Assembly: GCA_018398585.1 (NCBI GenBank)
Contig: JAGTTD010000010.1
Location: forward strand, 3,551,501 to 3,615,500
Reading direction: 5' to 3'
DNA length: 64,000 bases
Source of the DNA: Simmondsia chinensis
Taxonomy: Eukaryota > Streptophyta > Magnoliopsida > Caryophyllales > Simmondsiaceae
Shown here: piece after piece, positions 12,519-62,681 of the stretch
Numbering within the stretch: position 1 is the first letter of the stretch
How the letters are laid out: each line of letters opens with the position of its first letter
The notes under the pieces: generated by a model
What the model was told of the DNA's origin: nothing
Database searches by the model: none
What the model saw: only the letters and a program-made list of their open reading frames with translations
Program-made: the position numbers and the translations under genes

Positions 12519-12522
12519 CAAT

Positions 12523-13769: not shown

Positions 13770-14383
13770 AGGCAAATTGGGCATGGCCCAGATCGAGGAT
13801 AAATTGAGGGAGCAACGTTTAATGTGGTTTGGGCATGTTAGAAGGAGATCAACCAATGCTCTGATTAGAAGATGCGAACAACTCCATACTACGCTCGAAA
13901 GGAGAGGAAGAGGCAAGCCAAAGAAAAGATGGTTGGAGACGATCAAGCACGACCTAACCCACCTAAACCTACAGGAGGAGATGGCCTTAGATAGAGCTCA
14001 ATGGAGGGCTAGAATAGGGGTAGCCGATGTAGTGGCTTAGAATACAAGAGCATATTCTTGCTAACATTAGTGTTCCCATGCCTTTTTGATATGGTCGCGG
14101 GCTATTTTATCCGCCTATTTTATTTGCCTATTTATTTATTTGTTTATTTGCCTATTTATTTGCCTTTCTTTTCTTTAAGCTTTCATTTTGCTTGCCTTGC
14201 TATGCCTTTACTCTTATACTTTCATGCTTTTATGCTTCTCATACTTTTCAGGTTGGGTGCCCTTATAAACATAGCCTTCCTTTAGGGTCACACCCTGAAG
14301 GGGTAGGGCTTCGTACATCCCACCCCCCAAACCCTACTTATGCGGAAACCCTTGAGGCACCGAGGAGTTGGGGTGGTTTTTTG

Positions 14384-16955: not shown

Positions 16956-17191
16956 AAGGAACATACTCAGTGCCTCAAGGGCTCCCGCCTAAGCAGGGTC
17001 TGGGTGAGACGGATGTACATAGCCTTCCCCCTTCAGGATGTTAACCTGAAGAGAAGTTATTTCCCAATACCCCCAACCTGATGGTGAGGACTTTCCAGGA
17101 ATTCACCCATTCTAGTACTACTCTCGCCCAAGCAAGATTAACTTCGGAGTTCTAATGGGATCCAATGACGGCGTATTGGTACCCTCTTTGG
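16956..17191 (-). mobile_element. 5S rRNA-headed SINE copy
   Basis: A 236-bp copy in minus orientation. On the minus strand it reads CCAAAGAGGGTACC, then a 5S-like head (GGATCCCATTAGAACTCC, GAAGTTAA, GGGCGAGAGTAGTACTAG), then the RTE-like 3' half (GTACATCC, CCTTGAGGCACTGAG), and ends TATGTTCCTT. Length and ends agree with the 39548-39782 copy. No clear duplication remains at the edges. Confidence 0.85.
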
Positions 17192-18158
17192 TAATTAAAG
17201 AGCTCTTAAAAGCACAAAAATAACTTTATACTTCGATTCCTACTAGTTACATACTTGCATTGTTACACCCAAAACAGTGAAAAAAAACCCCCAAATTCGT
17301 ACAATGTCCGTGCAATACTGAAGACTTGAAAACCCACTGCTTGGCACCTGGCAATGGGGTAAAGATAATGACAGGTAAGTCCTTACCCTTATTTGACAAT
17401 TTTATTTTCCGAGAGGAGGGCAGAGTAAAGTTTTAATGAACTTTCCATAGTATTATTCATATTTTAACTATAATTCTCTTTATTTTTACTCAGATAAAAG
17501 CAATTTATTTACTCCTCTTTATCTTTACCCCTCTTTATTAAACATATCTAAACAAAAGTAAAATAACATGTTAGCACACGTACTCATTTCATATCCTTCC
17601 TTCTACAACACACACTCTTAAACCAAAATTCATAGAGATAATAACTCAAAACACATAATACAACATACAAGCAAGGATTCGGTGCAGTCGTTGACAACAA
17701 ATGCACCATACATTTTGATATATTAAGTAACTTTTAAACCATTTATATATGTATATAACTGTATATATATATATATAAAAAGTCATAACAAAATGCATGG
17801 TACATTTTTTATAATAAATGCATCGAATCCTTGCCCACGAACAACACTACAATTTTCCCTCATTTTTCTTCCTCAATTGACAGGAAGAAGAAATGAATAA
17901 AATAAAAACAAAAAAAGAAAAAGGAGATAATTACTTATAAAATTATAGGCATCTTTGAAGAGAGAGAAACTGAATGAAGAGGAAGAAGAGAACTGAGCTC
18001 CATCTTTGCATGTTGGTGTTTGCTGAATTATTGTTGTTGCTGCTGGGTGCTGCTTATTGTCATATACAAAAGAGACATGGACATCTTAGAACAATAGTCA
18101 CATAATGTTGATTATAAAGCTATCTCGGAAGCTAAAACTGTTGAGTGAAGGTCTAATC
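17192..18158. other. Gene-poor stretch downstream of LYM2-like gene
   Basis: AT-rich sequence with a TA microsatellite near 17765-17778. A minus-strand stretch around 18010-17930 reads as a short signal-peptide-like peptide of about 22 codons without continuation. I see no supported gene. Confidence 0.5.
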
Positions 18159-18170
18159 ATTATTTATACT

Positions 18171-18422
18171 ACAACAACAACAGACCCAATGCTTCAAGGG
18201 CTCCTGCCTAAGCAGGGTCGAGGGGGTGGATGTACGCAGTCTTACCCCTTCAGGGTGTAACCCTGCCGAGAGGCTATTTCCAAGGACCTCCAACCTTATA
18301 GGATTGGCAACACGAGAACTTCTCAGGAGGTCACCCATCCTGAAACTACTCTTGCCCAAGCACAATTAACTTCGGAGTTCTAAGGAGATCCGGTGCATTA
18401 GTGTTTGGTAAATGAACCCTCA
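18171..18422 (-). mobile_element. 5S rRNA-headed SINE with TTG tail and TSD
   Basis: A 252-bp copy flanked by attatttatact at 18159-18170 and 18423-18434. On the minus strand the 5' end is TACCAAACACTAATGCACCG, which follows the plant 5S rRNA sequence closely from near its start. The C-box region and CTCGTGTTG follow. The 3' half matches the RTE 3' end and finishes in GTCTGTTGTTGTTGTAG. This copy has the most complete 5S head in the window. Confidence 0.9.
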
Positions 18423-18575
18423 ATTATTTATACTGCATGTTCATTAATACGAATATCTATTGGGTTTGAAGCATGAACAATACATAGAGCCACAAATCTG
18501 ACAACTTACAGGGATTAGAATTTGAGATCTCTTGGTTAAAGGATGTGGTATTTATGTGTAAAGTTTCAGTCAATG

Positions 18576-18955: not shown

Positions 18956-21900
18956 TCAACAATTATAACAGAAAAAGGCAAAAAGAATGGAGAAGAATCG
19001 AGATGCGAGCGTACTGAGGGCAGCACAGGTGGACTGATCAGCAAGGCTGGTGAGGATGGTCTGGTTGTTGTAGCCAGTGTAGGTGCATGTTTTGCAGCTG
19101 GGTGTGGTGGTGACATTGCCAAGTGCTAAGTTTCCTTGTGCATAGGAACATTGCGTAGCTGGGCATACTGACCACTTTGATGGCCTAAGCTGAGATGGCT
19201 CACACTGCAGCCTGTTCATCATCCACACCCATAAGTTAACATCAACTGGGTTCGGTTTTAGAGTCGTCGAAAACTGTAAAAGTTCAAGTGAGGTTTCATT
19301 CCAAAACAGATTGATCACTCAGGTGGAGTGATCCAGTTAGTCTTAAACTGACAACTTTGTATTGAGTTTTCTAAGTGGAGGCGTTAGTCACCAACTATGG
19401 CTCAGGAATCGGGGTGAATAGAGCCACCATAACAGTAACATAACCCTAAAGCAGACTCAGGGTCATTAAAAAGTACTACAGTATAAAAAAGCTTATGCCT
19501 TTTAGACTATTGCAAATCCAAAGAATCCTCACTCGAACTTAGCTCTTAAATAATTGAACACAAGATATGAAGTGGATTCATCTACTGTCACGTTTCAACA
19601 CAATTGGCATACATGTGAGGAAGTATGTTAGAGTATAAACCATTAGAATACAGTCTTTATCTCATAGCTTAAACTTCTAGCATAAGCACAAATGATTTAT
19701 TTGACGAAAAGACCAAGAAATGTACAAGTGTACTCCATGAAATGGGCTTGTCAAAATAACAAACATGCAAGCTAGATAGATGACCCCAACTTGCACTATT
19801 ATACATAATTGAGGAATAGTCAAAGCGCAGACAAGCTGGCCCGAACACCGCAATAAGAAATAAAAAAGAGTAAGAGATGTACGTGTAGTTGTTGGCAGAG
19901 GTGCACTGGCACTTGACACAGTTGTTAGCAGTGAAGGCATAAGTGCCATTGGCCAAAAGTAAAGGGTAATCTGGTGAGTTCTGGCTCACATTTGATGTGC
20001 ATGCTGCAATTCCAAATCAAGCATCATTAGTACACAACAAAAACAACAAAGTCAGTGCCTTAAAAGGCTCCCGCTGAGACAGAGTTTGGAGAGAGTAAGA
20101 TGTACGCAGCTTTACTCCTATAGGGTGGTACCCAGAAGGGAGGCTGTTTTGAGCCCCTCCCTCCAACACTAAAAAGCAAGAACAAAACAGTATTAATTAA
20201 ATCAAGCATCATTAGTAAAACTATGAAATTTTGGTGCAAACTCATGTGTTAATTAGCCCTCAGCACCATTAAGTAGAAACCTTTTTGCCATAAGAAATCA
20301 ACTCGATTTCAACTCTAATCTAATATAAATTACTAAATTTCAAGCAAATTTAACTAAGCAGAAACACAGCCTTAACAAAAGTGTTCTTTATATTGAAAAA
20401 AAAAAAAAAAAAGACACTACTTTTATGAGTTTTTCATTGTATTTGGTCAAAATATATAAGTGCTTTTAAATAAAAACAAAAGCTAAGTTTTTACCTTTTA
20501 AGCATAAGCAAAAAGATGGTGATTCATCTTTAAAATTGAAGCAAAATTCAAATTTTATAAGAGAAGTATGTCCCCATTCATAGTTCGATCAAGTATATTA
20601 TAAGAAAAATTGATTCTAAAAAAGAATTATTATTTACAGCATTGCTAAACAGGCTTTAAATCATAGATAACACAAACCTTACTCAAAACAAATCATTGGC
20701 TTCCCGAAGTTTTGGGTCTACATCCACATACACAGGGATCCTAGATCCAAACATACCAACGATGGGGAAAGAAAGAAAATAAGAGACACCAAATTTAAGT
20801 GGTTCAACTAAGGTCTACATTTATAGAGGGAGCACAACAATAACAACAACAACAATCTAATGCCTAAGAGTCTCCCGCTGAGGCAGGTCTAAGGGTTGAA
20901 ATGTACGCAGTCTAACCCCTCCAAAAAGAAGGCTAAATCTGAAGGACCCCAACCCTAGAAAGCACAAAATATTAATGAATCATGAGCCGAAATCTGATAG
21001 GCTTAATCCTCTACCCATAGACAGATCCCAAAACAACCAGACTCCATATGTAAGCCTAATATTAAGACAAGATAAGATCCAAAGCTATTAGTTTTGAAAA
21101 TTATTCTAATGTTAGAAGATGTTGGGAATTCACATGCAACTTGTCAACATGCTAACTAATACACAAATCAAATGGGACCTAAGTTGGGTCTTTTCGCAAT
21201 CAAAATCAATAGAACTGTAGAAATGTGAACGAGATTATATGATCATGAGAATCATCATCATAATGTATAAAGACAAGCATGACGGACCCCCCATTCCTCA
21301 TCCACAAGCTTATAGTGCATCACAATAACTTAGCAGCTCCTAAAGGATATTATATTTAATTCTACTCGTTAAAACTACTACAATAACAACAACAACAACT
21401 TAATACCTTCTCCGATATCTTGTTATGACCACCCACGAATCATCGAACCATAAGTAGAAGTAGTAAACATAATAAAGGGATTGGGGGAACAATTTGAACA
21501 ACGGAATTTACGTGGTTCAGTCAAAGCGTATGTCCACGAAGGGGGAGCACATAATTTCTCTATAGGAACAAAGGTATTACAACAGAGTTTTACACTCACA
21601 ATCTACCTCCCACTGTTTGGACTACATTTTATCCATTGCTTTCAACCCCTACCTAAATCATGGCACAAGAGGTCCTATTTATAGGCCTCTAGATTCATAA
21701 CCTTCAGGCAATCCAAGAGTCAGAACCATTATGTAATCCTTAATTTAATCCAGCCATTAAAGTAGGTATACCATCGGTATTCAACCTTAATAACAACAAT
21801 AACAGACCTACTGTCTCGGAGAGGCTCTCGCCAAGGCAGGGTTTGAGGAAGGTGAGATATATAGAGCCTTCTTCCTAAAGAGTGCTAGCCCTTAGGCAAG

Positions 21901-24900
21901 TTGTTTATGATGGATCGCCAATCCTAAAAAGCAAAGACGAACCAATATTTATAAAATTCAAGTCAAATAAAGCAGTATCAGACATGCAAGCCTAGGGGCA
22001 CTACAAACTAGCATCGATGTGATCCTCTCTCCTAACAACTGTGTCACATGTATTTTTAACTGCCACTTACCTCTACCTAAGGCCATCTCCTCATTAAAGT
22101 TTAGGAGGGTACGGTCATGCCTAATCGTCTCCATCCAACTTTTCTTTGACCTGCCTCTCTTTCTCTTCCGGTGTGTATTATGCAAGTGTTTACATTATCT
22201 AACATGGGCAATAATCAGTCCCTTTCTGACATATTCAAACCATTGCAGACTGTCATGATCATGGCACCCCGAGCAATGATAATGCCATAACATTGTCAAG
22301 ACAGTGTCAAAGGACCGTGCAGACGAAGGCCTAGCTTGTGCCCAAGAGGTGCCGGGACAGTGTCACGACAGTGCCACAACAGTGCCCAGGCAGTGCCCAC
22401 GACAGTGCCCAGGCAACGCCCAAGACAGTGTCACGACAGTGCCCAAGCAGTGCCCACGACAGTGCCTAGGTAGCGCCCAACAGGCCCAGCGCCGCCCCCA
22501 GCACGCCCCAGCAGTGCCCAACATCCAAAACCTTCTAGAAGCTTCCAGAACCTTGCTATCTGTCCCTTGACAACCCTTGTCTAGCCAGCTCATCGCATAG
22601 TACCGTCCTTGTTTTGTCATTTTGCTTTGTAATTATCATTTATTTTTGTATTTAGTTATTTAGGATATATTTTCAAATTTAGTTAGTATTTTTTAGATAT
22701 TTTTATATTTTGAAGTTGTACTAGCCCATTTAGTATAAATAGGGGCAAGCTCTAGCATTTGTAATCAATCAATCAATCAAAAAATATGAAATGAAAATCA
22801 TCTTTTCTCTCTTCTCTCTCTTCCTCACGGGTCATCTTCTTCTTCTCATCCCAAAACCCTAAAACTCTATTTCTTTCTCTCATCTAAATCTATTTCTATC
22901 TCACCTTCTTTTCTCACCTAGCTCTAAAAATTATCTATTTCTCTTCTCATCCTATACTCTATTTTCAACAAATCTATCCTTCCGTGCGTAATGAACATCA
23001 AGGTTCGCTACATTTGGTGTCAGAGCATTGTCACCAACCTTTGGGTTTATGACACAGACGTTGCTCCCTCAACTCGTCCTTAATTAGAGCCCTTGTTGAA
23101 AGGAATATCTCGATTATATAAGCTAGAGAGAGATTTTTAAAATTCCAACGGCACTACAAACAAATGCTAATATCAGCTACTGGGGAAGGCTTTTTTGAGC
23201 TGTATATAATATGCACCTTTTTTAACAACTTGGCAACTTCAACTTGCCAAATTTGTCTGTAGGGTCACACATTATTTTATGGCAAATAAATCTGAACCTA
23301 AGACTTTATGCTTTAAATTCTTCTCTTTTTTTTTTTTTTTTTTTTTTTTTGATGTTTTGATCATATTTGATATCATGATAGCATCATCAGCACCTCATAT
23401 TACTGTTGACTAGTGTTAGAATGTTATGTGTAATAATACGTATAAGTGATTAGTAGTAGTTGTAGTAGAATACATAATAGTACAATACTTGTATTAGGTA
23501 ATTAGTACAAATAGCATATTAGGTTGTTAAGGAATTAATCAATACAATAACAAACTATTCTCTCTCTCATCTAACTCTCTCTCTCTCTCATACCTTTCTT
23601 CTAATTCTTTCTCTCACCTCAACTCTAATTCCCAATCTATATCAAGAACCCTAACCCTAATCTAGGTTACAACCCCAATTGGTTGTAACATAGGCTGATA
23701 TTCTTTGGTGTGGAGACTAATAGCCGTCCTAACAGTCAAATTCATGACTGAATTTATTGGAGCCTTTTAAATGGCCATCTTTACTTATAGTGATTTATGG
23801 TGACTAGGAAGCAGCCCATAAGTAGGGCGTTCTGCTATTGTACTACAGTGAGGGAGAAAAGATTGTTTTCTCTATTTATATAATGAATTTCGTTGCTCCT
23901 TTATTGACATACGCTTCGACTCAACAACGTAAATTCTAAAGTTCTTGTTTTCTCCCAATCCCCTTTTGTTCTGTGCTTGCTACTTTTCAACTTAGAGTTT
24001 GATGTTTGTAGGTAGTCGTAACAGACTAATGGCTACTCCGAACACTACTGGTTAGGGCTTATTAATCATCACTAATTAAAAATCCCCCGTTTTCCTCCAC
24101 ACAAATACTTAGAAACTTTGTCCTCTCCCTCTTTTCCAGTTGTTAAATTCCAAAATTAAGTAAAAGTTAAAAGGAACCTTCTCAAAACGATCTGCGCCTA
24201 ATATTACCTGAAGATTTAACTAGCTAAAGGATGGAATGTCCTCACTATATAAGCTGACACATACTAACATACCTAACAGCACAAACCGTATGCCAGCCAA
24301 CTATGTACATCAATATTACAAATGCAAATACCAAAAACTATGAGCAGCTCTATTACCATTTTAATGGATGTTACGCCTAACTCCGCGAGAAAAATTGTCT
24401 TGACGGAGAGAAAATACATTCACCATATAACACGTGCCAACATTACTTAACAAACATTTTGTAGGAAAAATTTTCTAATATGTTGATCTTTTCCACAGTG
24501 ACGCAATTATAACATGTGAATTTCACCAAGCTTTAGGTCTAACCTACAGAGTCAGTAATAGATAAAGCAGTTGATTAGACTTATATATTAATCTCTTTTT
24601 TTATCGTAACTCCAATGTGAGATTTTTTACTAAACTCATCTGTAAAGTCGTAACAGCGATCCATGATATGAAGTTGACCATAAAAAGTCAGGAAAATGAC
24701 ACAATTATAGTATTGTGATGTGTATGGATATATATCATGCAATTAGCTCGCGCACTTACTTTGACTTGAGCGCTTACTAAAAGCCACAAGCACTAGTTTG
24801 ATCTACATTTTCATTAGATGGTGTTAGGTCTAGCATCTCGAAAACAACCTCCTTTTAGGGTAGCACCCTAAAAGGGTAAGGTTGCGTACATTCCTCCCCT

Positions 24901-27290
24901 CTCTCCAGACCCTGCTTACGTGGGAGCTCCTAAGGCACTGGGTTGGTGGTGGTTGTTGGTGGTGTTAGGTCTATCATAAACAAATACCATTTATTTATTG
25001 TCTAAATTTCCATTTCATATTCACTAAAAGCAAATTCTTATTAATCTGACTTGTACTTTTCCATATGTGCATCGAGCTCAAGATTTATCATCTGAGTACC
25101 TTGATATTTTAATGTACGATAGGATAATTCAAAAATCTAAAAGTTCTATTAATTGGTTACCATCTTCTAAAATCTAGTTAATTGTTGCTGAATTTCCAAT
25201 GAAATTTTGCCCGAGAAGGCTAACACAACACATGATTACTAGTCTATGTTGTATTAATGTTCGTGACCGAAATTCGCTGGACTATGACAAAAATTCACGT
25301 GATTTTGGTAGGTAATATCCATGTATTGTCCAAAACATATGCCTTCTTAGTTCGGTTTTTCTACCTCGACTCCTTTTTATTTTCTTACTTAAGTTCGATT
25401 TTTGATTACTCATTATCACTATTTATGCCATTTGTCAACTTTTGCTAAATTCTAGTTAATCTTTATTAAAATTTGATGAGATTTTATTGGAAAATGTTGA
25501 GAAGCATATGATTTCATTATTGGAGCTTTCGGCAACAATTTCCCAAATTACCAAAAAAATATGCAAAAAGATAGAGAGCATGTCAATTTTCCCGAACCGT
25601 AGGCCCGACACCCATAGAGTTAGCATGCATAAATATCACATATAAGTCTATCCTAAAATCAATTGGCCTTAGGTGTAGTCACCCATGTATTAATATGTTT
25701 CCTCCTCCGACTCCAAAGTACAATTCTTAATAAACTCATTTATAGAGTACTTAGCAGACAGAGTTGTACCTTTGAGAGGAACATCAAGGATTTGGCCAGC
25801 GTAAAGCTTCTTAGGATCAGTCATCCCATTCAACTTCATCAATGTCTCCTGGGTGGTTCCATACGTCGTTGCTATACCCTCCACCGTGCTCCCTGCTGCC
25901 ACCAGGAGTCCATAGTGCACCACCTTCATCCCATCCATGTCGTGGTCGCAACTGCACGGCAACGGTATCCACAGCTTCTGCCCCACCTTTATCACATTCT
26001 TGTTCACTATGTTGTTCACGGCCGCGATCTGGTCGTCTACTACTAGCCCTCCAAACACCTGTTACGGAAATAGTATTTGAATTGGGTATGAAAGCAATAA
26101 AATGGGTTTAATGCGTGTAGAGAATCACTAGCGTTAAAATTTGTTTTAGTCTTATGCAGATAGTGTTGGGTTACAACGGAACCTTAAAAACATGGTGAAA
26201 GTGTACGTGGAATAATGGGTTTTTGAAATTCAAGATAAGAGAATAATTTTAAGTTTTTTAAGTAATTAAATCTGATTTGGACGGTTTAATATAGAGGGTC
26301 ACGCTTAAAATAGGCCAAGTCACTTTGTTAAGAGTAATAACTCTACATGTGAGTTAAAATGCGAATTTCATATAGAAGTAGTGGGAGTGAAAAAATTAAT
26401 TTACAAGACTAGTGAGTGCTAAACCTATTGTCAATTGATTTTATGATAGAACCCCATTTAGACTTATATATAGACCTTGTATATTCCAACTTCGTGGGTA
26501 AGGCCTAAAAGGCCCTATAAAATTTAACACCGGTTCGACACATAGATCGGTATGTTGAAGTTGTGAGTTGATATATAGTACTATTGTTTTTTCCACATTG
26601 TAACTTTTCTAAGATTATGTGTGTGTCAACATACATCATCCCATGAGCATCACACACCAAGCCCAAGGTAGAACACTTCCAAAGCATATTGTTAAATTTG
26701 AGGGGCGTTTAGGCCCGACCCACATAATTGGAATATATGAAATCCACCTAAAAATTAAATGGATTCTATTTTAAAACTCATTGATATTTGGTGAAATAAC
26801 TCATTATCCTAATATATTAATCCCTTTTTTTCCTACAACTTCAACATAAGATTCACATTTAACTCACATCCAGAGTTGTTCACACACATCCAAAGCAAAA
26901 ACTACATCAACAACATACATCAGCCGCGATGCGATAGAGCCCATCACCGGGAACCACAGTATAGACCGGAACGTGATTCGACATCCCAGTGCCGTTAGCA
27001 CAAGCACAGGGGAACGGGACCCGAATCGTCTGCTTAGCCCGGACCGGGGCATTAGGCAATGTAGAGAGGGGAAGATTGTTAACACCGAGGATGGCGCGGA
27101 GGTTCTTGACTTGGAAGAGGGATTGGATGCCGCCAAGGGTGGTGGCGTTGGGCGTGAGGTAGTCGGCGAAGGCTTTGCAGGTGGTGGTGGTGGGGGTGGC
27201 GCATTTGAAGGAGGGCGGCGGAGGCTGGGCGGTGGAGAGAGAGAAGAGGAGGAGAGAGAAGAGAGAGATGAGGAGAGAGAAGGACGCCAT
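18956..27290 (-). CDS. LYM2-like: LYM2/CEBiP-type LysM chitin-binding protein (4 exons)
   Basis: Proteins of this family sit on the outer face of the plasma membrane, bind chitin fragments and act in fungal recognition; Arabidopsis LYM2 also limits plasmodesmatal traffic. Exons on the minus strand are 27290-26919, 26058-25770, 20003-19883 and 19211-18956. All introns are GT-AG and the exons sum to 1038 bp in frame (345 aa plus stop; family about 350). A signal peptide (MASFSLLISLFSLLLFSLST) is followed by a cysteine-rich part. LysM 1 (residues about 110-157) and LysM 2 (about 173-218, GTTQETLMKLNG) follow, with CxC motifs FPCAC, PLPCSC and VKCQC. The C-terminus ends in a short hydrophobic run (FFSILFAFFC), weaker than a usual GPI signal. 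A GT inside exon 4 (CTCA/GTACGC) could instead lead to an unseen terminal exon. Intron 2 is 5.8 kb and full of transposons. Confidence 0.92.
19540..19690 (+). repeat. TRIM-like fragment in LYM2 intron 3
   Basis: It contains the internal and right-LTR words of the 16247 element (acacaattggcatac, then tgttagagtataaacc). It lies inside intron 3 (19882-19212). The primer-site half is missing. Confidence 0.5.
20033..20198 (-). mobile_element. RTE LINE 3'-end insertion with 19-bp TSD
   Basis: A 166-bp severely 5'-truncated LINE copy flanked by aaatcaagcatcattagta at 20014-20032 and 20199-20217. On the minus strand it runs from TGCTTTTTAGTGTTGGAG to CTGCGTACATCTTAC and ends in a TTGTT-rich tail. 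It has no 5S head. It inserted into LYM2 intron 2 close to the exon 3 acceptor. Confidence 0.82.
20834..20972 (-). mobile_element. RTE LINE 3'-end fragment
   Basis: The minus-strand sequence has the same 3' UTR (GCTTTCTAGGGTTGGGG, CTGCGTACATTTC) and a TTGTTGTTGTTATTG tail. It is 5'-truncated within the UTR and lies in LYM2 intron 2. Confidence 0.65.
21480..21700. repeat. LTR-retrotransposon fragment (tacgtggttcag motif)
   Basis: A segment with gaatttacgtggttcagtca and a following tgtccacg block. This wording is common at the ends of plant copia-type LTRs. Related sequence occurs at 48340-48400 and, in complement, near 51420. No termini are identifiable. Confidence 0.35.
21789..22250 (-). mobile_element. 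RTE LINE 3' region, 5'-truncated
   Basis: Minus-strand coding remnants (LQWFEYVRKG, RGRSKKSWMETIRHDRTLLNF, EEMALGRGKWQLKI) of the RTE C-terminus are followed by the 3' UTR and a tail GTCTGTTATTGTTGTTATT at 21789-21810. The tail and UTR are homologous to the element at 13770-14438. The 5' end abuts the LTR that starts at 22251. It lies in LYM2 intron 2. Confidence 0.75.
22251..23012 (+). repeat. LTR with primer-binding site, rest of element lost
   Basis: About 762 bp beginning tgtcatgatcatgg and ending gttcgctaca, followed at 23015 by a primer-site-like tggtgtcagagc. A TATA box (tataaat) is at 22734-22740. The 5' part holds degenerate short repeats built on acagtgcc and acagtgtcacgacagtgcc, reminiscent of the arrays in the 6838-13615 chromovirus LTRs. 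No coding region follows, so this is a 5' LTR with a small internal stub, on the plus strand in LYM2 intron 2. Confidence 0.65.
23422..23690 (+). repeat. Solo LTR of the 35209 element family
   Basis: 269 bp starting tgttatgtgtaataatacg and ending caattggttgtaaca. It is the same LTR as at 35209-35464 and 36839-37115, including the CT-microsatellite and ctaaccctaatctaggttac. No internal sequence follows, consistent with a solo LTR from recombination. The flanks (tagaa and taggc) no longer match. It lies in LYM2 intron 2. Confidence 0.82.
24534..24650 (+). repeat. Dispersed repeat family member
   Basis: It shares aggtctaacctacagagt, cttatatattaatctc and actccaatgtgagatt with 48788-48950 and 26705-26880. 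Non-coding, in LYM2 intron 2. Confidence 0.4.
24838..24960 (+). mobile_element. RTE/SINE 3'-end insertion with 17-bp TSD
   Basis: A 123-bp copy flanked by ggtgttaggtctagcat (24821-24837) and ggtgttaggtctatcat (24961-24977), one mismatch. It runs from the ccttttagggtagcaccct block through gttgcgtacattcctc to a TTGG/TGG-rich tail. It is too short to tell whether the source was the LINE or the SINE. It lies in LYM2 intron 2. Confidence 0.75.
25601..25730 (+). repeat. Dispersed repeat family member (diverged)
   Basis: ggcccgacacccatagagtt and acatataagtctatcctaaa relate to the 26705 copy. It ends just short of LYM2 exon 2, inside intron 2. Confidence 0.35.
26705..26880 (+). repeat. Dispersed repeat family member
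   Basis: It contains ggcccgacccacataattgg, atatgaaatccacctaaaaa and aacttcaacataagattcac, colinear with 48788-48950. It is located in LYM2 intron 1 near the exon 1 donor. Confidence 0.42.
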
Positions 27291-27488
27291 TGATGGAGCT
27301 CAGAGTGAGTTGCAGGGGAGGGGGGTTTTGAAATTTGAAAAGGAGGAATTGATTGTGGGGTGGAGAAGTGGGGAGGAAATTGGACCAATTGTGGGGAGAT
27401 ATCTAGGAAATTTTCAATTTGAAAATGTTATATATAATTAGCGAAATTATAATTATATATTATCAAGGGTTGATTTATCATATAATAA

Positions 27489-27719
27489 GGCACTGAATCC
27501 TATTAAAACTTTGAAGTTAAGCGTATTTGGACGAGAGTAGTACCAGGATGGATGACCTCTAGAGAAGTTGTTATATTATCAACCTTATAAGGTTGAGGGT
27601 CCTTAGAAATAGCTTTCCGGCAGGGTTACACCCTAAAGAGGTAAGGCTGCGTACATCCACCCCTCCCAGACCCCGCTTATGCTAGTGTCCTTGAGGCAAC
27701 TGGATCTGTTGTTGTTGTA
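27489..27719 (+). mobile_element. 5S rRNA-headed SINE upstream of LYM2
   Basis: A plus-strand copy about 200 bp upstream of the LYM2-like ATG. The head reads ggcactgaatcctattaaaa, gaagttaagcgtatttggac and gagagtagtaccaggatgga, colinear with 5S rRNA from about its base 20 onwards. The 3' half has aaggctgcgtacatccaccc and the tail gatctgttgttgttg. The first bases of the 5S head are missing. No clear duplication is visible. Confidence 0.85.
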
Positions 27720-27859
27720 TTAGTATATATTGTCAAAAAATTAATTATTTTAAAAGTTTAAGTTAATAAGTAAAAATCAAGTATATTTTGTACTCAATAT
27801 ATATTGTTGTTGTTGCTGTTTGTTACTCAATATATGTATTGAGCACATTTTGTTCTTCT

Positions 27860-34320: not shown

Positions 34321-34396
34321 GATGAATACGTCATGAAAGCTGTAGTCGGGTTTCAAATGTAAATTAAGATGAATACCTAAGTATTGGGTATTCATT

Positions 34397-34628
34397 AGCA
34401 ACATTTTTAGAGCCTTAGGGGCTCCCGCCTAAGCAAGGTTTGGGGGATGGATGTACGCGATCTTTCCCCTTCAGAGTGCGACCCTGAAAAGAGGTTGTTT
34501 TCGAGAACCCCCAACCAGAGTGTTGCCATGGGTTTTTCAAGAGGTCACCCATCTTGGTACTACTTTAGCTCAAACCCGCTTGGCTTCGGAGTTCTACTGA
34601 GATTTAGTGCTTGCATGTTTGTATCCAC
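34397..34628 (-). mobile_element. 5S rRNA-headed SINE with 13-bp TSD
   Basis: A 232-bp copy flanked by ttgggtattcatt at 34384-34396 and 34629-34641. On the minus strand the diverged 5S head (GAACTCCGAAGCCAAGCGGG, GTAGTACCAAGATGGGTGAC) is followed by the RTE-like half (GCGTACATCCATCCCCC, GCTTAGGCGGGAGCCCC). It ends CTAAAAATGTTGCT, a different tail from the TTG-repeat copies. Confidence 0.88.
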
Positions 34629-35026
34629 TTGGGTATTCATTCTTGGCACTAAAAAAGAGGTATGCAAAATTCCTTATATATTTTTTTTAAGTAGAATTTT
34701 TATATATTTTTATTTTTCCTGTATAAGTATCACTAAATATTTAAAAAATAATAAAATTTGACTACCTGATTCGAGTCGATGGATAATCAAATAGTAATAG
34801 TAATGTGAATATTAAGTAGAAGTTGTCACTACTCTCAAATTGCTTGAAATCCCGATCCTAGAAATTCTATAGGGGTTGTTCATTTTCTAAATATTTAAAA
34901 AAAGAAAATACCAAATAATGCACTATCTATATCTATATTCTTCAAACTCCATTTCTAGCAATTCTAGAGGGGGTCTTTAAATATTCATAAAAAATAAAAC
35001 AAAATTCAAAAATAAGTCATAAATTC

Positions 35027-39370: not shown

Positions 39371-39547
39371 TATTAGCCGGTAATCTTCGAGGATCAAATT
39401 GACACAACATCAATTGTACATGGGCAGAATTGAAGTAATTAAAAGTATAAGGGCTAAAACTGACAAACGGATAAAATATAGGGAGTTTTAGTGTAAATAA
39501 CTCCTATTTCTAACAAGGTTATATTCCATCTAGGGAGAACCAAACTA

Positions 39548-39782
39548 AAGGAACATACCCAGTGCCTCAAGGGCTCTCGCCTACTTAGGGTCGGGGGGGG
39601 TGGATGTACGCAACCTTTCCCCTTCAGGGTGTTAACCTAAAGAGAGGCTGTTTCCCAGTGCCTCCAACCTGAGGGTGAGGACTTCCCAGAAGGTCACCCA
39701 TCCTGGTACTACTCTCGCCAAAGCATGCTTAACTTCGGAGTTCTCATAGGATCCAGTGATGGCGTATTGGTGCCCTCTTTGG
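39548..39782 (-). mobile_element. 5S rRNA-headed SINE, full copy with 19-bp TSD
   Basis: The reference copy: 235 bp between tctagggagaaccaaacta (39529-39547) and tctagggggaaccaaacta (39783-39801), one mismatch. On the minus strand it starts CCAAAGAGGGCACCAATACG. The 5S-like head continues with GAGAACTCCGAAGTTAAGCA and GAGTAGTACCAGGATGGGTG, which are the positions of the pol III A box and C box. The RTE-like half follows (GGTTGCGTACATCCACCC, GAGCCCTTGAGGCACTGGG), ending TATGTTCCTT. It has no LTR, primer site or ORF. The long duplication indicates target-primed insertion. Confidence 0.93.
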
Positions 39783-39889
39783 TCTAGGGGGAACCAAACT
39801 ACACAATGGAAATAAGGGAGGGGGGGGGGGGGGGGGGGGGGGAAGAGAAAAAAAAAATCAAATTTTACAGGGTAGTAGTAGTTTTCTTC

Positions 39890-40201
39890 TGTTGAAATTG
39901 TATTTTTGATGTATAATTTACCTGTATTTAGATTGGTATTTTACATGTATTTATTCCTAGCATAATTTTAGGATCTTGTTTATTCTTAACATAATTACCT
40001 CGCATGATTCTAGGATCTGGTTTATTCCTAGCCTAATTACCTAGCATGATTTTAGGATCTTGTCTCTTGCCTTTTCTTTGTATTCTCCTTGGTACTTGTA
40101 TATATTGTAAGGTTGATTATGTAAACATATAATCCAAAAATATAAGAGTTGAGAATTATTCTCCAAATTTATTCTTCTTGTGTTAATTTTATAGTTTAAC
40201 A
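39890..40201 (+). repeat. 5' LTR of copia element
   Basis: 312 bp, tgttgaaatt...agtttaaca, with a TATA-like tatatattg near 40098. Confidence 0.93.
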
Positions 40202-40213
40202 TGGTATCAGAGC
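40202..40213 (+). promoter_or_regulatory. Primer-binding site of copia element
   Basis: tggtatcagagc directly abuts the 5' LTR and is complementary to initiator methionine tRNA. Confidence 0.9.
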
Positions 40214-40412
40214 GGGCTCGATCCTAAAGACCTGACTCATCTAGCCATTGCAGTCGTGAATCACACGGCTATTTAGCGGGCTTGATCTTGAAGACCCAAT
40301 CCGATTGTCCACGCCTAGACCTGCCGTGAACACAACAATTTTTTTTCCCTTTTTGAGCGTATCTGTTGCCTTTTCTCTTGTTTTGATTCGTGGCATTTTG
40401 CAATTTTTCATA

Positions 40413-43400
40413 ATGTCAAGCGAAAATACCAATCAAGTTGAGGCACCAATTGTTGTTTTAGGGGGAGTTCTAGATGTTAGTTCTCCTAGTTTAAATTTAA
40501 CAGGTCAGGTTGCTACTTCTTCTGTTAGTTGGATCATTGATACCAGGGCCTCCGATCACATGTTTCCACGAAGTTCATGATGTTTGATGTTGCTGTTAAC
40601 AAGTCTGTTGGACCTGTTAGATTACCTAATGGGTCGAGTTTGTCGGTTACCGATATTGGGAAAGTTTGAATTTTAGATAATCTCGTTCTTAAAGATGTGC
40701 TATATGTGCCTGGTTTTTAATATAATTTGTCATCCGCGAGCAAAATAACTCAAAATGAGAATTGTACGTTAACATTTCACTCTCTTTTCTGTTATATACA
40801 AGACTTACGCTCGAAGAAGCCGATTGAAGCGGATAGGCTGAGAGATGGGCTATATTTCTTGAAACTCCCGTTGGTTGGGTCTGCACCCTTGGTGGAGCCT
40901 TCTTCACTTTTGGTCCAGAGTAATAAAGAGGATGTTTTGTGGCACGATCGCTTAGGACATGTACCTTTTTCGAGATTGTCCAAGTTTCCGCATTTGAATG
41001 TTGAAAGACAGGTTTTATTTGTGATCCTTGTCACCGTGCCAAGCAGGCGCGGTTGACTTTTCCATTGTCAGTTTCGAGGACAAATGTTTGTTTTGAGCTT
41101 ATACATTGTGATATTTGGGGTCCCTATCGTGTTGTTTCACTAACAGGAGCTCGTTATTTCCTCACTATTGTTGACGATTTTAGTCGGTGCACATGGGTTT
41201 ATTTGATAAGGGAGAAATCCCAAGCTCACAAAATTCTTAGAGATATTTGTAGAATGGTTAGTGTGCCATTTGGTTTTCAGGTAAAACAGATAAGAAGCGA
41301 CAATGGGTAAGAATTCAAGTATGGGCCTTTGTTGGAGTTCTATGCTCAACATGGGATTCAATTCCAAACATCGTTGACCGGGACACCTCAACAGAATGGG
41401 GTCGTAGAACGAAAACATAAGCATCTTTTGGAAGTTGGTAGAGCTCTTCGCTTCAAGGCAGGCTTACCGAAGAGGTTTTGGGGTGAGTGTGTTTTAACAA
41501 CTGCGTATCTTATTAATTTAACTCCGTCTATTTTGCTCAACAATAAAAGTCCGTATGAAATTTTGATGGGAAGATTACCCTCATATGATCATTTGCGAGT
41601 TTTTGGATGTCCATGTTATTTACATAGTAAACCTCAAGATAAATTAGAAAGAAGTGGTGTACCTGGAATTTTTATTGGCTACCCTCATGGACAAAAGGGG
41701 TACAAGATTTTTGATGTTGCAAATAATAAAATTGTTGTCTCAAGTGATGTTCGATTTTATGAAGATGTTTTTCCTTAATTAAAACCTGATAGCATGCAAG
41801 ATTTTCATGATAAAAATGAGAATGAATTTAATCTAGGACAAATCTTCTATTTTATTGATGAGGAGGAACCGGTTCCTGTGCAGCACCCCGCGGTTGGCTC
41901 ATTGTTGACTGAGGAGCAGGGATCTCACCCGGCTGAAGGACCGGTCGGGAGGGACAGTGGGGCTAGTGGTCCATACTCGACGCAGTGATCGTATTCGTTC
42001 AATTCCCGTTAAGTATCACGACTACGTTTGTGATATTCCGTCTTCTATAGCCCATACTCTCACTACCACTCCGTCGGCCAATTCGGGTATAGAATATCCT
42101 ATTTCAAATTATATTTCTAACGCACAATTTTCTAACGCTCATGTTATTGTTTTAAATGCCATCACTTCAAGTGATGAGCCCAAAACTTTCCAACAGGCCG
42201 TACAATACAAGCATTGGTGAGATGCTATGGAAAAGGAGATGCATGCCTTACAGCAAAACTGTACTTGGACTTTGGAGAGCTTGCCGGAAGGAAAAAGGGC
42301 GATCGACTCAAAGTGGGTCTATAAAGTGAAGTACAAGTCCGATGGGTCTATAGAACGATATAAGGCATGCTTGGTTGCCAAAGGTTATACTCAAGTAGAT
42401 GGTATTGATTATCACGATACTTTTGCACCTGTTGCCAAGTTAGTAACAGTTCGTTTTGTTTTGGCAGTTGCGGAAGCCCGAAGTTGGGTTGTGCATCAAT
42501 TAGATGTGAATAATGCCTTTCTACATGGAGATTTGCATGAGGAAGTGTACATGAAACTTCCTCTAGGTTTTGAACAAAAACATGAAGGGAAGGTTTGTCG
42601 TCTTCGAAAATCCCCTTATGGTTTAAAACAAATTTTCCGTAATTGGAATGAGAAATTTACTACCACCTTGGTTAGCATTGGGTTTATACAATCTAAAACC
42701 GATTATTCCCTCTTCACATATTTTCGAGAGAATGTTTATACGGAAATTTTAATCTATGTTGATGATGTCATAATCACAGGAAATAATGTGGAACATATAA
42801 AAGGGGTAAAAGATGTTTTGAACAAGTCTTTTGGTATTAAAGACTTAGGGCCGGTCAAATTTTTCCTAGGGATAGAGGTGGCTAGATCCTCGAATGAAAT
42901 TTTGTTAAACCAAAGGAAGTATGTGTTGGATATTCTTAGTGAAGCAGGAATGTTTGGGCTAAACCAGTTTCCACACCGATGGTTCAGAACCACGGGTTGG
43001 CTGATGAAGTAGGTGATTTGGTGAGTGATGCAGGTCAATATAGGGGTTTGGTAGGGAGGTTGTTGTACCTCACTATCACTCGACCCGATATTTGTTATGC
43101 GGCAATTTATGCATGATCCTAGACAACCTCATGTTGATGTTGTAATGCGTGTGTTGAGATACTTGAAGGGTACACTGGGACAGGGTGTATTTTTACCATC
43201 AGCTAATGACCTTATACTCTGAGCATATTGTGATGCAGATTGGGCAGGTTGCCCTACTACAAGGCGATCCACAACATATTATGTGGTTTTCCTAGGTGGA
43301 GCGCCTATTTTGTGGCGATCCAAGAAACATAGTGTGGTTTCTCGTTCCTGGGCAGAAGCAAAATATTGGTCCATGGCTACCACGACTAGTGAAATAGTAT

Positions 43401-43564
43401 GGTTGCGTCGATTATTAGGTGACCTTGTTGTTACTACTGATGACCCTGCTTATTTGTTTTGTGATAACCAGGAAGCCCTTCATATTGCTTCAAATCCAGT
43501 GTTCCATGACCGAACGAAGCACATTGAGATAGATTGTCACTTCGTTCGTGAGAAATTATTGTGA
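40413..43564 (+). pseudogene. Copia Gag-Pol, gag deleted, several stops
   Basis: The start MSSENTNQVEAP looks like a gag N-terminus, but within about 55 codons the frame enters protease (SWIIDTRASDHMF, with the catalytic DTG changed to DTR). After a shift, GAG-pre-integrase (WHDRLGHVPFSRLSKFP) and integrase follow. The integrase triad residues are visible in CDIWGP, IRSDNG and GVVERKH, with a TAA inside DNG*EFK at 41309-41311. RT at 42227-43012 keeps YVDD. RNase H at 43200-43564 has ADWAGCPTTRRST. Stops also interrupt between 41778 and 42227 and near 43012. It is not competent, although the 261-codon RT block is open. Confidence 0.9.
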
Positions 43565-43703
43565 AAAGAGATAGCCACGGCCTATGTTAGAAGTGGATAA
43601 CAAATTGCGGATCTTTTTACTAAAGCCTTAGGCCATCCGGGCTATTCTTCATTCATTGGCAAGTTGGGTATGGTGAATTTACATGCTTCAACTTGAGGGG
43701 GAG

Positions 43704-43997
43704 TGTTGGAATTGTAGTTTTGATGTATAATTTACTTGTATTTAGATTGGTATTTTACATGTATTTATTCCTAGCATAATTTTAGGATCTTATTTATTCT
43801 TAGCATAATTACTTAGCATGATTCTAAGATCTTGTTTATTCCTAGCCTAATTACCAAGCATGATTTTAGTATCTTGTCTCTTGCCTTTTGCTTGTATATA
43901 TTGCAAGGTTGATTATGTAAACATATAATCCAAAAATATAAGAGTTGAGAACTATTCTCCAAATTTATTCTTCCTGTGTTAATTTTATAGTTTAACA
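43704..43997 (+). repeat. 3' LTR of copia element
   Basis: 294 bp. Relative to the 5' LTR it lacks about 18 bp near tattctccttgg and has scattered substitutions. Confidence 0.93.
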
Positions 43998-44391
43998 TCT
44001 TCGATGATTAACAACAAAGTCACAAATATAAAACAAGAAACATGTACAGACGAGCCCTGAGTCAATCCAGATAAAGACGGGATCAAATGCAGGAGCGCAA
44101 TTGTGAAATAAGAAAGCAAGAGAAAAAAAAATGAGGGAAAAGGCTAAATGTATCAAATTTGGGTACCAAATGATACAATTTAGAGCAATGGATTATAAAA
44201 ATAAGGGTCATTTTATACATTAGTCACCGGACTTTTAGTCCTTACACTAATAATTTTGTCAATAATTGAAAATTGAAAATTAAAAATTTAATATTAATTT
44301 GCGGCTAAAAATTATAACACATTCACTTTTTATAAAGTTTGAACCTTTTTGAACACCCCCTCCACATGGAAAAAACATGTATATGCTGATT
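43998..44391. other. Intergenic, no gene seen
   Basis: AT-rich sequence between the copia element and the ORF1-only LINE. There are no repeats or frames I can support. Confidence 0.55.
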
Positions 44392-47412: not shown

Positions 47413-47577
47413 AAGGAACATACCCAATGCCTCAAGAGCTCCAGCCTACGCAGGGTTTTTTGGGGGGGGGGGGGGGAGAGATGTACGCAACCGTCCCCCT
47501 TCAGGGTGTCAACCTGAAGAGAGGCTGTTTCCCAATGCTCCTAACCTGAGGATGAGGGCTTCCCAGGACGTCACCCA
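47413..47577 (-). mobile_element. 5S rRNA-headed SINE, head truncated
   Basis: On the minus strand it runs from GGGTGACGTCCTGGGAAGCC (the end of the 5S part) through GGTTGCGTACATCTC to TATGTTCCTTAC. A G-run of about 17 lies inside (47460-47476). The copy lacks the A-box half of the head. Confidence 0.75.
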
Positions 47578-50084: not shown

Positions 50085-50385
50085 GAATGAAAGAAAACCC
50101 TAAATACGAACATTATGAAAATTCCCCGAAGTTAATCATGAATACAAAAGTGGTTCAAAATATATGAAGGCCAAGTTTGGTAGAAACAGGGAGACCCCTG
50201 GCGAAACAACTTACTTTGCGTAGTTCAGTTGAGAGATTCATATTGATACGTAATGGGTCCCCTCCTTTAGGATCGAAAGTTATAGTTGTTTCAAGTCAAT
50301 AATGCGGATCAATGTTTATGACCCACCCATTTAGATTAATGGCGGTTGAATTACCTTGTAGACTCTTTGACTACTTGTCTTACAT
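50085..50385. repeat. Dispersed repeat interrupted by Harbinger MITE
   Basis: Colinear with 31200-31530 (see that entry). The PIF/Harbinger-like element at 50389 is inserted in it. Confidence 0.4.
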
Positions 50386-50388
50386 TAA

Positions 50389-51125
50389 GGCTCCGTTTGT
50401 TTCAACGGAAGTACTTTTCCCACGGAAAATATTTTCCTTTGGAAAAGGTTTTCCATGGAAAATGCTATTCCCGTTGAGATTTTCCGTTGTTTGTTTCAAT
50501 GGAAAACATGTTTTCACATTTTAATATTCCTGATTTGTTTTAAAAAATCGTCTTTTACCATTCATCTTATACCTAGTTATAGGACAATATAAGTGGCAAT
50601 ACAATATATTTGAAATTATTTAGATTCAGTGTGGTTGCAGAATTATTACTAAGATACCCTGAGGTTTGAGCATTTATTACATATCATGACATTTGAATGT
50701 ATATAATAACGTACTCTGAAGTTGAATATTTTATCACTTGGGTACCATACATCAAAATTTGATGAATTTTTGTAAGAATCTGACCAAATATAAAAGTGCT
50801 AATATAATATATAATTACTATAATATTTACAAGTCATATCAATATTTTTAGCAAATTACGATAAAAAGTTTACCATATATTAATGTAAAAACTGCCTAAA
50901 TATGGCCGAAATCATATGCCGTGTTAGTATTTTTAAGGAAAAATCTAATGAGAATACTTATATATTGTGGAATCATGTTCCCAAATCACTCATAATGATG
51001 ACTTCCTCTCTTTTAAAAGGGAAGTCATTTTCCCCCATTTGAATAGGAAAACATTTTCCGTCACTAATCTTGCGCCAAACAATGGAAAAGGGGTGGAAGT
51101 GGTTTTCCCCTGAACAAACGGAGCC
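50389..51125. mobile_element. PIF/Harbinger-like MITE with TAA TSD
   Basis: 737 bp with 3-bp duplications TAA (50386-50388 and 51126-51128). The ends are ggctccgtttgtttcaacgg and the complement of ctgaacaaacggagcc. The inner segments near both ends contain ggaaaa/ttttcc repeats. There is no transposase. The 3-bp T(T/A)A duplication and GGCTCCGTTTG ends fit Tourist-type elements. A close relative in the opposite orientation is at 59514-60268. Confidence 0.85.
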
Positions 51126-54334: not shown

Positions 54335-54483
54335 TCCTTGGGGTAGGAGGTTCTCGGGAACAGCCTCCCTTCAGGGTAGCTCCCTAAAGGGGGAAGGCTA
54401 CGTACATCCACCCCCTAGACCTTGCGTATGCGGAAGCCCTTGTAGCACTGGTTCTGTTGTTGTTATTGTTGTTGCTGTTGTTG
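54335..54483 (+). mobile_element. RTE/SINE 3'-end fragment with TTG tail
   Basis: gggaacagcctcccttcagg, then aaggctacgtacatccaccc and a long ctgttgttgttattgttgtt tail. It lacks a 5S head. The boundaries on the left are approximate. Confidence 0.7.
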
Positions 54484-56032: not shown

Positions 56033-56091
56033 AACGAACCGGAACCGGAACCGGAACCGGAACCAGAACCGGATATAAATATATATATATC
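56033..56091. repeat. Hexanucleotide (gaaccg)n and TA microsatellite
   Basis: About six tandem gaaccg units (one with gaacca) lead into ggatataaatatatatatat. A SINE inserted in the TA run. Confidence 0.85.
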
Positions 56092-56282
56092 AACATACCC
56101 AATACCTTAAGGGCTCCCACCTAAGCAAGATCTGGGGAGCAGATGTATATAGCCTTCCCCTTTCAGGGTATTACCCTTGAAGAGAAGCTGTTTCCGAGTG
56201 CCTCCAATCTAAGGGTGGAAACTTCCCAAGAGGTCACCCATCCTGTTATTACTTTCGCCTAAGTACGCTTAACTTCGAAGTT
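56091..56282 (-). mobile_element. 5S rRNA-headed SINE, 5'-truncated
   Basis: The copy sits in a TA repeat, so the duplication cannot be defined. On the minus strand it has AACTTCGAAGTTAAGCGTAC, GATGGGTGACCTCTTGGGAA and the RTE-like half, ending GGGTATGTTG. The first part of the 5S head is missing. Confidence 0.82.
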
Positions 56283-56549
56283 ATATATATATATATATAT
56301 ATATATATCGAATTTAATAAATACATTGCTTGTGAAGTATGTGCTCATTTCTGGTCATGAGAGTACGGGCATTTCTATTTGAGTCATGCTCCCATCCGTG
56401 ATCTTCTTTCAATATTCTAAGCTGAGGATATGTAATTTTCTTTCTTGAAAGATCGTCCTTAACCTCTTCTAAAATCTCTTCTCTCCTCTTCGCTCATTTT
56501 CTCTGTCTTCCATCAGAAGCTTTGCGAAGGTTTTTCTCAACGTCTAACA

Positions 56550-57015: not shown

Positions 57016-57286
57016 GTCCCAATAAATTTTAAAATTTTCAAGTTTAATTATCTTTCATGTTTTTTGTTATTAGTAAATTAATGTACCAACAAATAAAAGT
57101 AAAGATCTTAAAAAAATACTAGTATTTTTTTTGTAAAGATCAAGAGAACGCTAAGGGACCTATAAAAATAACAGGTCGAGCCTTATGAATTTCCTAATTA
57201 TGACCCTCAAAAATTCCGTTGTTGCTTCTATACCCTGGAATTCCTCGCCTTATTACCTCATGACAAACAGGGGAGATCATAAAATA

Positions 57287-57495
57287 AAAAACGACATTTC
57301 TAGTCCCCTAAGGGCTCCCGTCCAAACAAGGTGTGGGGGGGTGGCTGTACGCAGCCTTCCTTCTTCAAAATACTACCCACAAGAAAGGTTGTTTCTGAAA
57401 ACCCCCAACTTGAAGGGTGCAATACGAGGACTTCTCAAGAGGTCGTCCATCTTGGTACTACTCTCACCTTAGTAGGTTTAACTTCAGAGATCTAA
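57287..57495 (-). mobile_element. 5S rRNA-headed SINE with 17-bp TSD
   Basis: A 209-bp copy flanked by ggggagatcataaaata at 57270-57286 and 57496-57512, a perfect match. On the minus strand it starts inside the 5S head (TTAGATCTCTGAAGTTAAAC), runs through TCCTCGTATTGCACCCTTCA (the end of the 5S part) and the RTE-like half, and ends AGAAATGTCGTTTTT. The 5' truncation confirms reverse transcription from the 3' end. Confidence 0.9.
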
Positions 57496-57512
57496 GGGGA
57501 GATCATAAAATA

Positions 57513-60268: not shown

Positions 60269-60638
60269 TAAAATTTAGGGGATTTTAATAACGATTTTTT
60301 ATTATTAAAATAAGTGAGGTACAATCCTTCATTAAATTTTAATAAACGTACTTTAATGATAACAAAAATTGTCGTGAAATTGACACCACCTTTAAATTTA
60401 GTATATTCGGCTCCTTTTGACTTTGACATGGCACCAGTCACATGCACTGTACGGAAATGTAACATGCAGAGGAGTGATGGGGTACTTTTATTGTCTTTAA
60501 AATGTGCATGAAAAGCCCAAATCTATGAATATTTTATTTTTATTTTTTCATAATAGTACAGGAAAAGGGCGCAAAGCGAACCTTTTTGGATAGTTTTGTC
60601 TAATAAATCCCCGTAAAAATTATCGAGCCGAGGCAAAA

Positions 60639-62340: not shown

Positions 62341-62424
62341 TGGATGACCTCCGAAGTGAAGCGTGCTTAGACGAGAGTAGTACAAGATAAGTGACCTCCT
62401 GAAAAATCCTCGTGTTGCACCCTT
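62341..62424 (+). repeat. Isolated 5S rRNA-like head fragment
   Basis: About 84 bp: ctccgaagtgaagcgtgctt, agacgagagtagtacaagat, gtgacctcctgaaaaatcct and cgtgttgcaccc. It is colinear with plant 5S rRNA from about base 30 to its 3' end, followed by unrelated DNA instead of the RTE-like half. It is either a SINE truncated at the junction or a 5S retrocopy. It is too incomplete for a gene. Confidence 0.75.
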
Positions 62425-62681
62425 TAAGTTAAAAATTCTTAAAAATCCACCTCTTTCAAACCCGACTTAAACGAGAGCCATTGAGATATTGGGAATATTG
62501 CTTTTGCTTTAACGAGTAAGTCCTGGTCAAGTGAAAAATTGAGAATCCCCCAGCAAGTACCGGGTGTGCGCCCTTAATTAATTAAAGAGCTTTCGCATAT
62601 TCCTAAGTATATTTTTTATATTATTTTCCTAATTGATTCTCCTCCCAATCTAAGCGGTGCAAACTAAAAAGAAAATTCTTT

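Follow-up and report, generated by a model that had tools for sequence, protein, structure and literature searches.

The question raised by this locus is what kind of element carries the sequences resembling 5S ribosomal RNA (rRNA) that recur in a 64,000-nucleotide stretch of the jojoba (Simmondsia chinensis) genome. This stretch (assembly GCA_018398585.1, contig JAGTTD010000010.1, positions 3,551,501 to 3,615,500 of the forward strand) is referred to as the window. The copies very probably belong to a family of short interspersed elements (SINEs) of the SINE3 type, in which a 5S head is joined to a tail that is the 3' end of a resident long interspersed element (LINE), most likely of the RTE clade. 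The original prediction had described a SINE with a 5S head that spreads by target-primed retrotransposition.

Copies in the window and in the genome

Nine headed copies and five tail-only copies were counted in the window by alignment (Table 1). The Rfam 5S_rRNA model gave seven matches, of which five are above the gathering score. The copies at 47413 and 62341 are without an Rfam match, yet they align to the SINE family. All nine copies that were first listed as having a 5S-like 5' half therefore reach a 5S head (seven by Rfam and two by alignment). One tail that is not 5S follows the head in all nine copies, as had been proposed for all but the 62341 copy. The 62341 copy had been regarded as a head-only piece. 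This status is rejected by the alignment, where the tail resumes past an internal deletion and runs on to about 62505. The 5' truncation that had been claimed is exhibited by four copies (47413, 56091, 57287, and 62341), and the 47413 copy retains 5S only from about position 83 onward. The duplication of the 27489 copy, the five tail-only copies, and the LINE identity of the tail had not been listed before.

The target duplications in the window were compared with 3000 random placements, with element ends that were set by eye. The duplications of 19 bp at 39548, 13 bp at 34397, and 12 bp at 18171 were recovered at the lengths originally given. The duplication at 57287 is perfect as claimed, and its length is 18 bp instead of 17 bp. 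A run of 23 G is located at 39820-39842, just beyond the duplication of the 39548 copy. A 254-nt repeat that is 72% identical (16282-16535 and 62717-62970) is located near two SINE copies, on opposite sides of them, and is not part of the SINE.

Table 1. Positions of the headed and tail-only copies in the window, with their target duplications. Copies are named by the numbers in the first column.
Copy	Feature	Position	Strand	Target duplication	Evidence
39548	A-type 5S-SINE, full length	39548..39783	-		Rfam 5S 39666-39783 (-), E 8.5e-9, best in window; alignment
39548	5S head, without last 11 nt of 5S	39676-39783			
39548	LINE-derived tail	39548-39675			
39548	5' target duplication (element sense); base 39783 may belong to either part	39783..39801		19 bp, one mismatch	p 0.004
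39548	3' target duplication	39529..39547		19 bp	
16956	A-type 5S-SINE, full length	16956..17192	-	none found	Rfam 5S 17075-17192 (-), E 1.2e-5
18171	B-type 5S-SINE, full length, complete 5S head, (TTG)n end	18171..18422	-	12 bp, 18159-18170 / 18423-18434	Rfam 5S 18302-18421 (-), E 1.4e-8; duplication p 0.012
27489	B-type 5S-SINE, full length, (TTG)n end	27467..27723	+	13 bp, one mismatch, 27454-27466 / 27724-27736	Rfam 5S 27469-27584 (+), E 1.2e-4; duplication p 0.026
34397	More diverged 5S-SINE copy	34397..34628	-	13 bp, perfect, 34384-34396 / 34629-34641	Rfam 5S 34513-34634 (-); alignment; duplication p 0.009
47413	5'-truncated A-type copy, start inside C-box	47413..47577	-		alignment
56091	5'-truncated copy adjoining TA run	56091..56285	-		alignment; Rfam 5S below gathering score, 56204-56310, E 6.1
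57287	5'-truncated copy, 3' end of 5S complete	57287..57495	-	18 bp, perfect, 57269-57286 / 57495-57512	alignment; Rfam 5S below gathering score, 57414-57529, E 0.037; duplication p 0.002
62341	5'-truncated copy, internal tail deletion	62341..62505	+		alignment
24842	Tail only, read as 5'-truncated LINE 3' end	24837..24959	+	18 bp, one mismatch, 24819-24836 / 24960-24977	alignment; duplication p 0.004
54342	LINE 3' end with (TTG)n	54342..54470	+		retrieved LINE family as genome query
14248	Tail only, LINE 3'-end type	14248..14372	+		alignment
20037	Tail-only fragment	20037..20149	-		alignment
20843	Tail-only fragment	20843..20923	-		alignment

The host genome comprises 831 Mb in 35 contigs. 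The 39548 element (type A) gave 8088 first-look candidates as the genome query, and the best 40 that were scored are all significant and located on many contigs. The 18171 element (type B) gave 10184 first-look candidates, and its best 40 are likewise all significant; the two candidate sets surely overlap. The copies form two discrete types, where the 11-nt deletion and the CCTT end of type A are diagnostic changes compared with type B. The elements are about 236-250 bp long with a tail of about 125 nt. The family is short and dispersed and acquired target duplications of variable length, which are traits of SINE3 elements.

The 20 best A copies besides that of the window were fetched. This sample favours intact copies because they were chosen by similarity to the query. 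Nearly all of them start with ACCAAAGAGGG and stop at or near GTATGTTCCTT. Target duplications of 12-21 bp (commonest length 18) abut these fixed ends in 16 of the 20 copies, which is consistent with the target-primed retrotransposition of the original prediction. The 16 duplications score 11-20, whereas controls with swapped flanks (n=380) never score above 7. A duplication with a score of at least 11 was identified in 27 of 40 copies of a wider set. The A consensus that was built from the 20 fetched copies and the window copy has 236 bp. The fetched copies are 96.2-99.2% identical to it and the 39548 copy is 92.8% identical. The genome holds many copies as well as very similar ones. Two substitutions separate each of three A copies from the consensus, and the duplications of these three are 17, 20, and 21 bp long (perfect for 17 and 20). 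Therefore, the family has been recently active.

The abundance of headed copies was read from loci that had been fetched for other ends, which lean to DNA rich in retroelements. The 90.7 kb surrounding 29 tail loci hold ten headed copies and the 59.2 kb surrounding eight longer LINE loci hold three, where the second sample overlaps the first by some kilobases. One headed copy beyond the seven targets was found in 22.7 kb, and the 64-kb window has nine. If this density is typical, it would mean tens of thousands of copies genome-wide. SINE or tail copies are nested or closely spaced at three loci (L080, L084, and L086).

Cassandra, a terminal-repeat retrotransposon in miniature with 5S in its long terminal repeats (LTRs), is a 5S-bearing retroelement that has been documented in plants (PMC10853983; PMC10886601). 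The copies could be such LTRs or fragments of them. Two pairs of copies on the same strand (16956/18171 and 56091/57287) are about 1.2 kb apart and are spaced like paired LTRs. The window also has ten primer-site-like matches to TGGTATCAGAGC with at most two mismatches, where 2.75 are expected, and the match nearest to any copy (62754-62765, one mismatch) is located about 250 bp past the 62341 copy. However, the members of each pair differ in type or truncation, and the 18171 and 57287 copies carry their own duplications. The duplications of the 16 fetched copies are not the 5 bp of Cassandra. The primer-site-like words are over-represented because of other LTR elements in the window, and none of them adjoins a copy there. 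Like copies that flank an internal stretch holding a primer site were not seen, in line with the absence of LTRs stated in the original prediction. The elements start with ACCAAAGAGGG or GGGTTCATTTACC and finish with CCTT or (TTG)n, and not with the TG...CA of LTR termini. Cassandra or paired LTRs are thus rejected as an extremely improbable source on account of the long duplications, the unlike pair members, and the lack of an adjoining primer site.

The 5S head and its promoter

The genome-wide consensus of the SINE family was aligned to the 5S genes of the host and has 5S identity, so the case of a consensus without 5S identity is excluded. The best 47 of 51838 first-look 5S candidates were scored, of which 46 cluster on contig C8, where they occupy two stretches, and the remaining one is on contig C29. 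The A-box and C-box regions that had been noticed in the head are present. The A consensus is identical to the host 5S genes at 15 of 15 positions of the A-box, 6 of 6 of the intermediate element, and 16 of 18 of the C-box. Outside of the promoter, the A head has changed more. Only 18 of 34 positions are identical at 5S positions 1-34, compared with 60 of 63 at positions 35-97 (Fisher p 1.3e-6), and the last 11 nt of 5S are absent. Hence in type A the promoter was kept, and the rest of the head was free to change. The B consensus (seven copies) is identical at 107 of 117 aligned 5S positions and retains the 3' end of 5S. It does not exhibit the contrast between the 5' arm and the promoter (28/32 versus 59/63, p 0.44).

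The starts of both A and B elements coincide with 5S +1, and internal TTTT is absent from both consensus sequences. The head is thus predicted to have what a working 5S-type internal promoter needs. No tRNA head was found, as the head is 5S in all nine headed window copies. ARAGORN also found no tRNA in the window, where a decayed tRNA head would escape it.

The C-box of the SINE differs from that of the host. All 213 motif matches at the ribosomal DNA (rDNA) loci of contig C8 (L088-L117) are AAGATGGGTG, in a count where overlapping loci recount units and units that differ in neighbouring letters are missed. At the SINE loci, 25 of 27 matches are AGGATGGGTG, which has been termed the canonical form in a passage of PMC10853983. 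A change to C just upstream of the C-box is found in all 27 SINE matches and in 2 of the 213 rDNA matches. The simplest reading is a single capture of the 5S head that predates a change in the C-box of the host itself. On this reading, most SINE heads would keep the older C-box. Cassandra, by contrast, has been reported to track changes in host 5S promoters.

These features also bear on whether each copy is an independent processed 5S pseudogene or a one-off chimaera made by template switching between 5S and LINE RNA. The founder probably arose by template switching, and chimaeras with 5S-derived parts are to be expected where LINEs are active. However, a single junction, two discrete types, and fixed ends are common to the copies, some of which depart by no more than two substitutions from a consensus that is distinct from the 5S genes of the host. 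Heads identical to those of the host are expected from repeated independent capture. Independent 5S pseudogenes are rejected on these grounds (junction, types, ends, and non-host consensus), and we regard them as very unlikely.

The tail, its LINE partner, and the insertion signature

The genome was searched with the tail-only element at 54338-54470. The best 40 of 4333 candidates were scored and gave 30 loci including that of the window. No 5S head is located within 200 nt upstream at any of the 30 tail loci. At least 150 nt upstream of the tail are shared with another locus by 16 of the 30, as far as the fetched sequence extends, and this pattern is as expected for copies that are truncated at varying points. 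Among eight longer fetches, two copies align over 3.6 kb at 81%, and this alignment runs through a reverse-transcriptase piece. Eight reading-frame pieces from four LINE copies were scanned against Pfam. One piece matches reverse transcriptase (PF00078, E 2.8e-10), another has a sub-threshold ribosomal-protein match that is probably due to chance, and five match nothing. The reverse-transcriptase piece has 1023 homologues. Many named plant proteins are found among the best 120 that were listed, with Glycine, Malus, Helianthus, and Camellia as sources, and one of the 120 is from a moth.

The LINE 3' consensus was built from 18 of the 30 tail loci. The tail of the A consensus is identical to it at 110 of 123 positions, and that of the B consensus at 128 of 151 including the (TTG)n end. 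The shared upstream sequence, the 3.6-kb alignment, the reverse-transcriptase piece, and the identity of the tail together identify the SINE tail as the 3' end of a LINE that resides in this genome. The five tail-only window copies (14248, 20037, 20843, 24842, and 54342) are best read as LINE 3' ends. Three of them were tested for duplications, and those at 14248 and 54342 have none above chance.

Ends of (TTG)n or (TTGATG)n are given for RTE LINEs of flowering plants in Table 3 of PMC3747384, where 224 of 233 L1 families have (A)n. The LINE partner is therefore likely to be of the RTE clade, judging from its (TTG)n ends. The duplications of RTE-related plant SINEs are described as starting with T, with a run of T about 10 nt upstream (PMC13295347). 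At the LINE loci, TTT is found upstream in eight of nine duplications compared with 0-4 in controls. The first base of the SINE duplications is T in 19 and A in 8 of 27. The insertion signature is thus partial support for insertion of the RTE type.

Several results weigh against a SINE that is mobilised by an RTE LINE. Duplications are not clear in 4 of the 20 A copies and 13 of the 40 copies of the wider set. Three of the nine headed window copies (16956, 47413, and 62341) have none above chance, and the 56091 copy lies in a run of TA that makes its duplication uninformative. A first base of T or A tells little in AT-rich DNA next to a T-rich element end, and TTTT upstream of 10 of the 27 SINE duplications is a weak enrichment over the 3-7 in five shifted controls. 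Only 9 of the 30 LINE loci gave a duplication, with first bases of T (four), G (three), and A (two), where it is the G starts that count against the signature. The LINE frames are broken, and one of the eight pieces passed the relevant Pfam cut-off. The endonuclease match (PF14529) is below its cut-off (23.2 versus 27.4 bits). A 15-bp hairpin was predicted from 11 tails, where 6 of 23 predicted pairs have changes on both sides. However, the covariation term for the tail is slightly unfavourable (+0.27), and whole-element RNA folding is no better than that of shuffles (z -0.68).

A mechanism for the 5S-headed SINE can be proposed from these features. A LINE reverse transcriptase would have switched template from LINE RNA to 5S RNA. 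The fusion would have held a promoter and an end recognised by the LINE and therefore could multiply. Transcription by RNA polymerase III would begin at the first base of the element by means of the internal 5S promoter (A-box, intermediate element, and C-box). The LINE protein would act in trans and take the LINE-derived 3' end of the transcript, which contains the predicted hairpin and terminates in (TTG)n or CCTT. Copying into a nicked target would produce the duplications of 12-21 bp and some 5'-truncated copies.

Neighbouring elements, known relatives, and meaning

Other elements are also present in the window. An LTR retrotransposon that is Gypsy-like by eye is located at 6838-13562 with an uninterrupted frame of 1533 amino acids on the minus strand. 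Its 300-nt repeats (6838-7137 and 12523-12822) are 100% identical and 34-bp tandem arrays are found at matching places, which suggests a young insertion. Frames that are Copia-like by eye are located at 39890-43998 between repeats that are 91-93% identical. This element has an exact TGGTATCAGAGC match at 40202, and about 90 bp separate its start from the duplication of the 39548 copy. An RRM domain followed by a DUF4283 piece is found at 45000-46180 and presumably resembles ORF1 of plant L1 LINEs. An inverted repeat of about 660 bp (50385-51043 and 59612-60272) consists of three joined pieces that are 88-90% complementary, with arms about 8.6 kb apart.

The SINE tail itself looks like what we take to be the 3' domain of Au and Angio-domain SINEs (GGAAACAGCCTCTC...GGCTGCGTACATCC...(TTG)n or T end). 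Au and Angio-domain SINEs are known as tRNA-headed, unlike the 5S-headed elements in this work. The Angio-domain superfamily was reportedly described in Plant J in 2020. The apparent likeness of the tail is one reason to ask whether this 5S-headed SINE has already been catalogued in SINEBase, Repbase, AngioSINE, or a paper. That would be compatible with the explanation favoured here.

PMC3095306 also places 5S among SINE3 elements "including plants", although the Cassandra paper is cited at that point. On the other side, a 2024 Cassandra paper that cites the Plant J 2020 work states in the relevant passage that 5S promoters are well known "for SINEs in animals" (PMC10853983). In the legend of Figure 5 of the 2024 Ajax paper, Cassandra is compared with 5S SINEs of insects (PMC10886601). 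No plant 5S SINE is among the matches listed from the open literature, which was searched by word and by sequence letters with SINEBase, Repbase, and the main plant-SINE papers outside its scope. No Au SINE sequence surfaced in the search by sequence letters. Prior cataloguing is a possibility, although we rather doubt it. Viral (IMG/VR) and prokaryote genomes that were scanned for the plant 5S, the tail, or the junction gave no matches or only short ones. One of these scans gave 29 contigs, among which the best 20 matches span 12-26 nt of the element.

The findings are consistent with the original statement that 5S-headed SINEs are established in animals, where they have been described, as they have in fungi (PMC3747384; PMC5063351). 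The SINE3 relatives are SINE3 of zebrafish, AmnSINE1, Ped-1 of springhare, HaSE3 of Helicoverpa, and AfuSINE3 of Aspergillus. The jojoba element is similar to them in having a 5S head with A-box, intermediate element, and C-box and a 3' end shared with a LINE. It is set apart from the animal and fungal elements, as these are described, by a flowering-plant host, a plant-like 5S head, and a plant LINE tail. Ped-1 has a Bov-B tail (PMC3747384, Table 1), and Bov-B is assigned to the RTE clade (PMC13295347). In the TS SINE of tobacco and in legume SINEs, the 3' end is shared with an RTE-clade LINE, and TS has (TTG)n repeats (PMC3747384; PMC13295347). The jojoba element likewise shares its 3' end with a LINE, which is probably RTE, but its head is 5S and not tRNA as in TS. 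It is similar to Cassandra in being a plant retroelement with a 5S internal promoter. However, Cassandra is an LTR element with 5S in the middle of its LTR, and its LTR pairing and short duplications are not exhibited here. This is very probably a SINE3-type element with an RTE-like tail in a plant, and it may have been described before.

We lean towards a joint reading in which the family is the plant kingdom's first 5S-headed SINE. In its origin, the 3' end of a plant RTE-type LINE would have been joined to a 5S gene, which displaced the usual tRNA promoter. The family would number perhaps between ten thousand and a hundred thousand copies and would preserve, as a fossil, an older 5S promoter that continues to use the same transcription factors.

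If this is true, 5S-headed SINEs extend to a third kingdom. The LINE partner is in hand, and both modules and their junction are visible in one genome. Insertion of a SINE3 has been proposed as the source of the 5S of Cassandra in PMC10886601, where no plant SINE3 is named in the passages concerned. The jojoba family would be a plant element of that class. Annotation may overlook 5S-headed SINE families, and the default cut-off of AnnoSINE is described as discarding candidates nearly identical to Rfam RNAs (PMC8825457). The family would be a natural experiment on the degree of divergence from the host 5S genes at which a 5S-type promoter still works. As a recently active family, it would also supply insertion markers for the plant lineage of jojoba.
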